Part shown: positions 4,737-7,550 of the stretch, in pieces
Position numbering within the stretch: position 1 is the stretch's first letter
How the letters are laid out: each line of letters opens with the position of its first letter
Assembly: GCA_030836185.1 (NCBI GenBank)
Contig: JAURQH010000019.1
Coordinates: forward strand, 1-64,000
Length of the DNA: 64,000 bases
From: Planctomycetota bacterium
Lineage (GTDB): Bacteria > Planctomycetota > Planctomycetia > Planctomycetales > Planctomycetaceae
Direction: 5' to 3'
Position numbers and translations under genes: made by a program
Notes under the pieces: generated by a model
Database searches by the model: none
The model's input: the letters and a program-made list of their open reading frames with translations, nothing else
Told to the model about the DNA's origin: nothing

Positions 4737-6296
4737 TTACAGGTTTGCTTTCTCTTTTTCAGTGGATTGAGACCCTCGATCATCCCAGGCACGATTCAAG
4801 GCGTGCAAATATGCCCGCGTTGAGGCTTCGATGATATCAGTACTGATGGCGCGGCCGTGATATTTACGTCCGAGATAACTGATCTCAACGATCACTTCTC
4901 CCTGTGCGTCTTTTCCACTGGAAATGCTGCAAACATCGTAATCTTCCAAACGGGCTTCAATCCCCACGATGCGTTCCAACGCCCGAAACGCCGCATCGAC
5001 AGGACCGTCCCCGGTTGCTGCATCGGAGACCGGTTCCTCCTCATCGTGTTGAAGTTCGACGGTGGCTGTTGGGATCATGCCCGTTCCGGCCGATGTATGA
5101 AAGCTGTTGAGGACCCAATGCGCTTCAAAATCTGTTTTTTGTGATTCGATCAGCGCAGTGATATCGGAATCGTAAATTTCTTTCTTTTTGTCAGCTAACG
5201 TAATAAAAGCATCGAAGACTTTTTGGAAAGTCTCGTCATCGACTTTGTAGCCGAGCTGATCCACACGATCTCGAAAGGCGTGTCGACCGCTATGTTTTCC
5301 CAAAACGAGATTCGTTCCCGTCAAACCAATATCTTGCGGTCGCATGATTTCATACGTTGTACGCTCCTTCAACATTCCGTGTTGATGAATGCCGGCTTCG
5401 TGAGCGAAGGCATTTTGTCCCACGATGGCCTTATTGCGTTGCACTTTCATTCCCGTGATTCGGGACACAAGATGGCTCACGGGATGCAATCGCTGGGTGT
5501 TGATATTGGTGTTGATGCCATAATAATCATGTCGAGTGCGCAGTGCCATGACCACTTCTTCCAACGCGGCATTCCCGGCGCGTTCTCCTAAACCGTTGAT
5601 GGTGCATTCAATCTGTCGAGCACCCGCTTCGACGGCAGAAAGACTATTAGCGACGGCAAGTCCCAAATCGTTATGGCAATGTGTGCTGATAATTGCCTGA
5701 TTAATGTTGGGGACGGCACGTTTCAAAGTCGAGATGACGTGATGGTAATGTGACGGCGTGGCATAGCCGACGGTATCGGGTATGTTGACGGTAGTTGCAC
5801 CGGCGGCAATCGTTTTCTCGACAACTTCGCAAAGAAAGTCGAGTTCGGTACGGGCCGCGTCTTCGGGAGAGAATTCGATGTCGTCGCAATACTCTTTCGC
5901 GCGAGCGACCATCTCGACTGCCGTATCGACAATTTGCTGCTTGTCCATTCCCAATTTGTGTTCGCGATGAATCGAACTGGTCGCCAAGAAAACGTGAATC
6001 CGTTTTTTCTCGGCATCCAACAGTGCATCGCGTGCTCGGTCAATATCGTCTTTGCGACTGCGAGCCAAACCGCAGATCGTCGTTTGGGCGCCGCATTCGC
6101 GAGCAATTCGTTGAACGGCTTCAAAGTCACCCGGCGAAGCAATTGGAAATCCGGCTTCGATAATATCGACTCCCAGTTCCACGAGTGCCTTGGCGACTTC
6201 AATTTTCTCATCGGTGTTCATGCTGCATCCGGGGGATTGTTCCCCGTCGCGAAGCGTGGTGTCGAAAATGATGACTGTCTCGTTGTTGGTGGACAT
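4737..6296 (-). CDS. leuA: 2-isopropylmalate synthase
   Basis: 519 residues, the usual length for bacterial LeuA with its regulatory domain. It condenses 2-oxoisovalerate with acetyl-CoA, the committed step of leucine synthesis. Seen: [18 protein letters not shown] at the N-terminus (catalytic RDGE), the metal-binding HCHND in [28 protein letters not shown], and GKHSGRHAF. The C-terminal region from about residue 390 (VELQHDEEE... [23 protein letters not shown]) is the LeuA allosteric dimerisation domain, so leucine feedback is likely. Upstream lies a leader with a leucine-rich peptide and a terminator (see 6342-6498), so expression is probably also under attenuation. Downstream genes follow at 27 bp, overlapping, and 18 bp. 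Confidence 0.97.
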
Positions 6297-6341
6297 CGTG
6301 ATTACCTGTGTTCAATGTCTGTCGTGTCAGTAAGGAGCAAC

Positions 6342-6379
6342 AAAAAAACCCTGAGGTCTTATGAGAGACCTCAGGGTTT
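6342..6379 (-). terminator. intrinsic terminator in the leuA leader (attenuator)
   Basis: Perfect 14-bp inverted repeat: 6346-6359 and 6366-6379 (core CCCTGAGGTCT/AGACCTCAGGG) with a 6-base loop, followed on the minus strand by seven U (A run at 6342-6348). It lies 46 bp before the leuA start and after the leucine-rich leader peptide, so it would stop transcription before leuA unless an alternative fold prevents it. On the plus strand the T tract is only four bases long. Confidence 0.9.
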
Positions 6380-6414
6380 TGATCGATTCGTTTTGAATTG
6401 TCTCAGTGCAAACC

Positions 6415-6477
6415 CTAAGCTCTCCCGCAAAGTAGCAGGCCCGGTAGGAGCAAGTTCAGGAGATTTGTCGTTTGCAT
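6415..6477 (-). CDS. leuL: leu operon leader peptide
   Basis: Short reading frame, ATG at 6477 and TAG at 6415-6417, encoding MQTTNLLNLLLPGLLLCGRA: eight leucines in 20 residues, grouped as LL, LLL and LLL and using CTC, CTG, TTG, CTA and CTT codons, including the usually rare CTA twice. A purine stretch AAGAG sits 8 bases before the ATG as a plausible ribosome site. It precedes a terminator 38 bp downstream and then leuA. The symbol is given by analogy with proteobacterial leuL; there is no sequence homology implied. The product's only expected role is to sense charged tRNA-Leu through its own translation. Confidence 0.8.
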   Translation of the reverse strand: MQTTNLLNLLLPGLLLCGRA

Positions 6478-6504
6478 AATTGAGACTCTTCGTGTCAGAC
6501 ACTA

Positions 6505-6533
6505 AAATTAACGTCGGGTTCGATCCTGGTCAA
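6505..6533 (-). promoter_or_regulatory. candidate promoter of the leu leader
   Basis: On the minus strand TTGACC (6528-6533) matches the -35 consensus at five of six positions, followed after 17 bases by TAATTT (6505-6510), a weak -10. Transcription would begin near 6498, about 20 bases before the leader peptide ATG. The sites overlap the region upstream of the divergent HAD gene. Confidence 0.45.
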
Positions 6534-6593
6534 GTCATGAATCAGATCCATCCTGAACTCGCGACAAATCTCACTCGAAATAGACCGGAGATC

Positions 6594-7550
6594 ATGACTT
6601 ACACTTGGCCCGAATATTTCGATTGGCTCCATAAAAAACCGCTGAAATGGCCGAATCCACCACCCATACAGCCCATTTCTGCAAAGGCATCGATTCGCCC
6701 CTTACCTGATATCAAAGTTGTTTTCTGGGATTTTTACGGAACTATAATCCGTGTCAGTGATGGGGAGTTAGTCAAACTTGTGAACGACGATTTTCGTATG
6801 CAAATTGCAATTGAGAAGACCTTAGAAGAGTTCTCAATGTGGCAAAGTATGACTCGAAAACCGGGAGCACCCTGGAAATACTTACTGAATCAGTATCAGG
6901 AATCACTCGATCAACTGACAATGACCAGAAGTTGTAGTTCGGGTGATACCCCGCTGGTTTGTTTGAGTGAAATCTGGTCTCGAATTCTGGACCGCTTGAT
7001 GAAAAAAGACTTCAGTTGGGACAGAACGATTCATGGAGATCAGGAGCGCCTTGCTCAACACATAGGATTCTTCTATCATCTTTCTCTGCAAGGAGTTGAG
7101 GCTTCCCCTGAAATCTGCGAGACCTTACTGACGCTCAACAATCGGGGGCTTCGTCAGGCCGTTTTGGGAGATGCGGAAGAGTTTTCATTACCGCATTTTC
7201 TGTGGTTATTACGGGAAAAGACAGGAGGCGAGGTTCCCGTCGGACTGTTTGATTCGGCTCTTACCCTGATGTCACACAATCTAGGGCTTCGCAAATCGTC
7301 ACAAACTTTTTATAAAACAGTAGAGAAACAACTGTCGGAACAACGAATTCAGCCTCATCAGGTGCTTTCCGTTTCGACCCGATTAGAAGGGGATCTCGAA
7401 CTTGCCAAACAGCGCGGTTGGAAAACGGCACTCTTGGCGAATGATCGATTGTCTCTGCGTGCAAGTTCCTCACAATTGAAAGAAGAACATTTGAAGCCAG
7501 ATCGGCTATTAACTTCTCTTCGACAAGTTATTGACCTCATCTCCCCATAA
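6594..7550 (+). CDS. HAD-superfamily hydrolase
   Basis: 318 residues from the ATG at 6594 (MTYTWPEYFDWLHKKP), preceded by CCGGAG. The frame is open from a TTG at 6480, but that would run through the leu leader promoter, so the inner start is preferred. The HAD motif I reads VVFWDFYGTII: D-x-Y-G-T, with the second aspartate replaced by tyrosine, as in haloacid dehalogenase-type members rather than typical phosphatases. Motif II-like and the C-terminal part (VLSVSTRLEGDLELAKQRGWKTALL) fit the fold, where a ribosome of the family usually shows GD/ED followed by A. Divergent from leuA; FabZ-like and trmB genes follow at about 43 bp each. Substrate unknown. Confidence 0.65.
   Translation: MTYTWPEYFDWLHKKPLKWPNPPPIQPISAKASIRPLPDIKVVFWDFYGTIIRVSDGELVKLVNDDFRMQIAIEKTLEEFSMWQSMTRKPGAPWKYLLNQYQESLDQLTMTRSCSSGDTPLVCLSEIWSRILDRLMKKDFSWDRTIHGDQERLAQHIGFFYHLSLQGVEASPEICETLLTLNNRGLRQAVLGDAEEFSLPHFLWLLREKTGGEVPVGLFDSALTLMSHNLGLRKSSQTFYKTVEKQLSEQRIQPHQVLSVSTRLEGDLELAKQRGWKTALLANDRLSLRASSSQLKEEHLKPDRLLTSLRQVIDLISP

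Follow-up and report, generated by a model that had tools for sequence, protein, structure and literature searches.

The window analyzed here, a stretch of 64,000 nucleotides from a Planctomycetota genome, contains a gene for 2-isopropylmalate synthase (leuA, positions 4737-6296, minus strand), which is the gene predicted to be regulated by the element described below. The assignment is based on profile matches (NF002086, 785 bits with a cut-off of 532; TIGR00973, 745 bits with a cut-off of 598.7). The named sequences closest to this leuA come from planctomycete records, and this is the basis on which the analysis placed the organism among the planctomycetes. Upstream of the leuA start at 6296, and on the same strand, we identified a short open reading frame of 20 codons (6415-6477, minus; MQTTNLLNLLLPGLLLCGRA). 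Eight of its codons specify leucine (two of them CTA), and it ends with a TAG stop codon 118 nt upstream of leuA, with a terminator in between. A previous reading of this DNA from the letters alone (the sequence-only reading) had pointed out the eight leucines in 20 codons, and they are present as described. By eye, there is no clear Shine-Dalgarno sequence ahead of the frame. The same reading had recognized a promoter-like pair of -35 and -10 elements, which is also present (6505-6533, minus: TTGACC at 6533-6528, a 17-nt spacer and TAATTT at 6510-6505) and has counterparts in most of the related leaders considered below. The transcript is predicted to start near 6498, approximately 20 nt ahead of the leader frame. 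The large frame upstream of the leader in the window is on the opposite strand (6480-7550, plus), where the frame 6597-7550 is without a Pfam match. After leuA, the next three long minus-strand frames encode an AhpC/TSA protein, a protein of no Pfam family and an aminotransferase.

The region between the leader frame and leuA encodes a predicted intrinsic terminator, also on the minus strand. Its hairpin (6380-6345) has a 6-nt loop and joins a 5' arm (6366-6380, region 3) to a 3' arm (6345-6359, region 4) that was delimited by folding and covariation. A tract of seven U (6342-6348) completes the terminator. The stem and the U tract overlap, because four of the seven U (6348-6342) were also counted in the stem. 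The hairpin and its seven U had been placed at 6342-6379, and these coordinates are right; counting the outer A-U pairs, the stem has 15 pairs. Folding of a 53-nt segment with the terminator gave z = -6.2, and none of 200 dinucleotide shuffles was equally stable (0/200). Region 3 serves as the terminator 5' arm and also as the 3' strand of a predicted antiterminator. The 5' strand of this antiterminator (region 2, CTTAGGGTTT, 6408-6424 with a core at 6410-6419, minus) spans the leader stop codon and forms its best own duplex with region 3. Complementarity of 6410-6419 to the first terminator arm, in 10 pairs including one G-U, was part of the sequence-only reading and was confirmed by duplex computation (6419-6410 with 6379-6370). 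The best duplex of regions 2 and 3 includes three extra pairs past a one-base mismatch and reaches -19.4 kcal/mol.

Staged folds of the window RNA show how the two structures could alternate. With region 4 not yet made and a ribosome at any of five Leu codons, the predicted structure is the antiterminator (shortened when the ribosome is at the last codon). With a ribosome at the stop codon, it is the terminator. Ribosome-free RNA in which region 4 is unmade also folds into the antiterminator, and in full-length folds the terminator is preferred in every case. Thus, the switch would have to be kinetic.

The distance between the frame and leuA bears on whether the leader frame might work on leuA by translational coupling or reinitiation, not by termination. 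Korolev et al. (2016; PMC4833913) found leader frames to be overrepresented at 10-11 bp from the following gene, in Planctomycetes as well, which would fit such coupling. However, the 118 nt in the window are interrupted by the terminator, and the same paper states that attenuators require at least 40 bp. We consider coupling or reinitiation extremely improbable here, and favor control of leuA by transcription termination.

LeuA-like proteins are encoded in all genomes of the GTDB family (170/170), and the leuA upstream regions of 130 of the 170 were analyzed. The genome of the window encodes a third LeuA-like protein (L082, contig C15, 94872-95957; 45% identity), and this contig has no match at E <=1 to R1, our covariance model of the leader. 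With a simple scan for hairpins, a terminator was detected in 124 of the 130 family regions. Leucine codons were counted in 122 regions, i.e., excluding six without a scan-detected terminator and two with <120 nt of upstream sequence, and a frame that ends near the terminator and encodes five or more Leu is present in 117 of them. The corresponding count in dinucleotide shuffles (20 rounds) averaged 23 of 122 with a maximum of 38, and there were 5/122 on the antisense strand and 4/64 in sequence further upstream. Among 18 other amino acids tested (Met not included), the best at the same threshold was Ser, with 16/122. A chance Leu-rich frame is ruled out by these amino-acid, antisense, shuffle and further-upstream controls. 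The 122 scored regions come from 51 genera and the leaders are not independent; leaders with at least five Leu occur in 48 of the 51 scored genera. For the 119 leaders with at least four Leu, the median length is 20 codons, the median Leu count is 7 and the median gap between stop codon and terminator is 33 nt.

The element is also present in two congeners of the window genome, where the leaders read MQSINLLNLLLPSLLLCGRA and MQYLNLLSLLLPGLLLCGGA. Frame, terminator and alternative pairing are present in 3/3 congeneric genomes and across the family, and the expectation that the layout would be conserved in relatives is borne out. In at least three regions (those of genomes G067, G007 and G106) the scan missed the element or scanned it wrongly, and its presence was recognized using R1. 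We consider the observation confirmed, far beyond chance.

Of 118 family leaders, 89 have a promoter pattern (TTGAC-N17..19-TAnnnT) no more than 110 nt ahead of the frame, compared with a mean of 0.46 and a maximum of 2 in 50 shuffle rounds, with the pattern itself picked after inspection of the leader sequences. The promoter ahead of the leader frame thus appears to be conserved, and its activity is predicted. Codon choice within the leaders is also distinctive. CTA accounts for 23.1% of 821 leader Leu codons, whereas in long open frames its share is 1.6% of 2414 Leu codons across 36 loci (L081-L116) and 2.5% of 1591 Leu codons in the window. RNA pairing, rather than codon rarity, could be a partial cause of this excess.

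Covariation was evaluated in an alignment (A1) of 49 chosen family leaders, with both test structures taken from one of them. In the terminator, double changes occur at 10 of 13 pairs (67 cells, compared with 22 in shuffles), and 91.7% of cells are paired. The antiterminator has double changes at 7 of 10 pairs (20 cells, compared with 8.5 in shuffles), and 85% of its cells are paired, compared with <=61% when the strands are slid. In one of the slid controls (+3), double changes are seen in 24 cells, more than the 20 of the true register, although only 28% of its cells are paired. The tenth antiterminator pair is unpaired in 37 of the 49 leaders. Judging from this alignment, there is covariation in both of the predicted helices, which exclude each other, and it is stronger in the terminator. 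Covariation of the 6410-6419/6370-6379 pairing had been put forward as a check on the leader, and the double changes at 7 of 10 pairs in the 49 leaders speak for the pairing.

Comparisons among individual leaders extend beyond the family. When each locus outside the family is treated as a group of its own, 65 of 85 groups show better pairing of region 2 with the region 3 of the same leader than with the average region 3 of other groups. At the level of single region 2 strands, 39 of 155 pair better with their own partner than with >=90% of foreign partners. When the duplex of regions 2 and 3 was evaluated leader by leader, 62/124 family leaders and 15/40 leaders from outside the family were matched by <=5 of 100 shuffles. 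There is weak support for a protector helix that would form between regions 1 and 2, inside the coding part of the leader: in 35 of 50 genera own pairing is lower than in codon-order shuffles, and the value for the window is not significant.

Within the genus, R1 produced weak matches ahead of two further genes, which the sequence-only reading had not included. The first is cimA, identified as citramalate synthase by TIGR00977 (680 bits, cut-off 450), for which the leader is MIRNNIVIIEILVGIIVPSETMRL. The second encodes DAHP synthase (TIGR01361, 379 bits, cut-off 267.75), and its leaders end in clusters such as FGFGDGFFYGWYDLD. The genome from which the window comes carries all three, i.e., leuA, cimA (contig C66) and DAHP synthase (contig C26; leader ending in QPEFGFAGFFYFGWYSME). 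On C66, the Ile-rich leader and the terminator before cimA occupy 2144-2215 on the minus strand (locus L232), and here as well as at L221 and L222 they sit approximately 330-500 nt upstream of citramalate synthase. On C26, the leader rich in Phe, Tyr and Trp and its terminator lie before DAHP synthase, upstream of 65867-66880 on the minus strand (locus L286; also L285 and L287). The R1 scores in the genus are weak (E 0.001-0.03 for cimA; E 0.01-0.68 for DAHP synthase, with 0.68 in the window's own genome), and several other weak matches in the genus are plain terminators or tRNAs. The evidence for cimA and DAHP synthase is the leader frames and not these scores.

Thirty loci were considered for each gene, of which 29 for cimA and 25 for DAHP synthase were anchored. 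At least five Ile are encoded in 22 of 28 cimA leaders (mean of 1.8 and maximum of 4 in shuffles), and the next amino acid, Arg, reaches this number in 7/28. One cimA case (L416) is without a clear Ile leader. At least five Phe, Tyr and Trp together are encoded in 19 of 22 DAHP synthase leaders (mean of 3.5 and maximum of 6 in shuffles), a count that sums three amino acids where the others are single: Phe alone gives 9/22, and Ser gives 8/22. The DAHP synthase antiterminator was matched by <=5 of 100 shuffles in 14 of 19 leaders, and own pairing beats foreign pairing in 16 of 19. The cimA antiterminator is weaker, with 11/24 and 15/24, respectively. The match between leader residue and pathway in three genes that share one layout is the strongest single argument for ribosome-mediated attenuation.

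The idea of an attenuator on every amino acid gene is unsupported, as the layout was not found before ilvB and trpE. Any terminator at all was found in only 2 of 18 ilvB regions (22 loci), and none of the 18 has a leader frame. For trpE, 2 of 16 regions (22 loci) have any terminator, and the one frame found contains a single Trp. In the scan of these two genes the gene start was fixed at 1500 nt, which is inexact where a contig end truncates the locus.

The change of leader residue from gene to gene is also relevant to another reading, in which the Leu-rich frame is incidental and the hairpin serves as an ordinary terminator for an upstream or antisense transcript. Such a role would be in keeping with a hairpin that is strong by itself and nearly symmetric and whose complement R1 scores too (E 2.3e-4), and with the tendency of R1 to find unrelated tRNA-plus-terminator pairs. 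However, we saw no upstream gene on the minus strand that would need a terminator, because the large neighboring frame is on the plus strand. In addition, the frame, the promoter, the antiterminator strand that overlaps the stop codon and the codon bias are conserved together, and the leader amino acid shifts with the pathway. We judge an ordinary terminator to be very unlikely.

A comparably small chance is given to direct sensing, in which the RNA would recognize leucine or tRNA itself (as a riboswitch or T-box) or bind a protein, and the small frame would be secondary. There is precedent for doubt about leader codons, as Seliverstov et al. (2005; PMC1262725), in the passages cited here, argue that they are not the sensor in the actinobacterial leuA LEU element. 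A riboswitch or T-box was rejected as a candidate, as Rfam has no match at gathering score in the window, nor did a permissive scan of 6300-6600 give one at gathering score. In the alignment, moreover, conservation falls on the two alternative helices, which are separated by variable sequence and lie next to the Leu-coding frame. The leaders of cimA and DAHP synthase differ in sequence and match their own amino acid, which also argues against direct sensing.

We searched for the element more broadly using R1. At E <=0.001, matches occur in 181 of 297 genomes of the class (including the family), and some such matches are tRNAs or plain terminators. Of 40 class matches that were inspected, which were picked among good ones and for which genes were named mostly by eye from the protein start, 37 precede leuA, cimA or DAHP synthase (19/20 in one set and 18/20 in a set drawn from ten families). 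The two exceptions in the latter set overlap tRNA-Ala genes. In one family (f2), the loop limit of the hairpin scan misses long-loop terminators (10/29 found, and three more via R1).

For leuA, leaders with at least five Leu were counted in 61 of 80 loci grouped by record title; the other 19, apparently family members, were left out. Outside the family, 30 of 41 loci of planctomycetes have such a leader (a count that includes L018). Among loci of deep-branching planctomycetes (with titles that are Phycisphaerae-like or similar) the count is 1 of 8, with a weak hairpin, and among loci without planctomycete in the title it is none of 12. Locus L018 comes from a record titled Vicinamibacteria bacterium, and its leuA, which has a Leu-rich leader and terminator, is 62% identical to that of the window. 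Either the contig is misassigned or the gene was transferred from a planctomycete.

Outside the class, 7 of 18 inspected R1 matches precede DAHP synthase with aromatic leaders (e.g., MKHYAVFYYFKYYRGGS), all in other classes of the phylum (L392-L394, L398, L399, L402 and L403), and leuA was found behind none of the 18. Six of the other 11 matches overlap a tRNA gene on the same strand (L388-L390, L396, L400 and L404). A tRNA gene followed by a terminator is an artefact of R1, seen at these loci and at L417, L418, L228 and L229. Ribosome-mediated attenuation may well be a standing control of three enzymes of committed steps, namely LeuA (by Leu), citramalate synthase (by Ile) and DAHP synthase (by Phe, Tyr and Trp), throughout the class, with the DAHP synthase version also in other classes.

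We conclude that the leuA element is very probably a leucine-sensing, ribosome-mediated transcription attenuator. Comparison of sequences shows its anatomy and conservation, covariation of both helices, and the codon bias and conserved promoter. The dedicated promoter would direct a transcript that starts about 20 nt ahead of the 20-codon leader frame. When leucine is plentiful, the leading ribosome would reach the stop codon, which is inside region 2, and would mask this region. With region 2 masked, region 3 would pair with region 4 to form the terminator, and RNA polymerase would halt ahead of leuA. When leucyl-tRNA is scarce, the ribosome would stall on the run of Leu codons, particularly at the rare CTA codons. 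Region 2 would then be free and, by pairing with region 3 ahead of the synthesis of region 4, would allow transcription of leuA. We infer that the frame is translated, that the ribosome stalls, that transcription terminates and that the element responds to leucine. The interpretation of the sequence-only reading, a leucine attenuator ahead of leuA, is supported by these comparisons. Its expression "translational attenuation" needs correction, as the anatomy is that of transcription attenuation controlled by translation.

That reading had also noted that no described case is known in planctomycetes, and there is indeed no planctomycete leu attenuator among the literature matches listed, with the comparative survey by Lopatovskaya et al. 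(2010) outside the scope of the search. In the main text of PMC4833913, leader frames near genes are counted, including those of Planctomycetes, and no leu attenuator is named there. For an Ile attenuator of citramalate synthase, the literature match concerns, in the part of that source considered here, valine overproduction in Methanothermobacter. Thus, given no planctomycete case among the matches listed, the lineage and the targets are new and the mechanism is known: the mechanism is textbook, and the lineage and gene set appear to be undescribed within the literature searched. The analysis extends a classical regulatory mechanism to a phylum without a report among the literature matches listed, and adds a candidate isoleucine attenuator, that of citramalate synthase.

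Because attenuation needs a ribosome on the nascent mRNA, the leaders bear on the coupling of transcription and translation in planctomycetes. This coupling is debated, and some planctomycetes have been proposed to have nucleus-like compartments. If attenuation of the three genes is true, the ribosome must run close behind RNA polymerase on these mRNAs, and the same would hold for whichever relatives are believed to keep transcription and translation apart. The leaders would thus represent a direct genetic test of planctomycete transcription-translation coupling.

Among the closest known counterparts is the leuLABCD operon of Escherichia coli and Salmonella, in which a Leu-rich leader (leuL) with rare CUA codons, and an antiterminator that competes with an intrinsic terminator, control leuA. 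The planctomycete element resembles it in the Leu-rich leader with rare CTA, the alternative antiterminator, the intrinsic terminator and the predicted control of leuA. It differs from leuLABCD in that the stop codon is inside the antiterminator strand, in that the protector helix is weakly supported, and in that the three minus-strand frames after leuA are not leuBCD. A run of Leu codons in a leader frame ahead of leuA also characterizes the actinobacterial LEU element, which, according to the cited passages of Seliverstov et al. (2005; PMC1262725), is a pseudoknot that includes the Shine-Dalgarno box of leuA. Those authors deem classical attenuation unlikely for it. In contrast to such a pseudoknot, the planctomycete element is predicted to be a plain pair of terminator and antiterminator.

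The aromatic leaders of planctomycetes share their kind of target with the aroR-aroF attenuator of Corynebacterium glutamicum (Neshat et al., 2014, as summarized in a passage of PMC11802643), in which a Phe-Tyr-Phe leader precedes DAHP synthase. As far as that summary allows comparison, the differences are the phylum and the clustering of Phe, Tyr and Trp together in many of the planctomycete leaders. A leucine-rich attenuator peptide for branched-chain amino acid synthesis is described for Staphylococcus aureus in part of PMC5794164. It belongs to another phylum and is a Leu-rich leader that controls genes for branched-chain amino acids, as the leader studied here is predicted to do.
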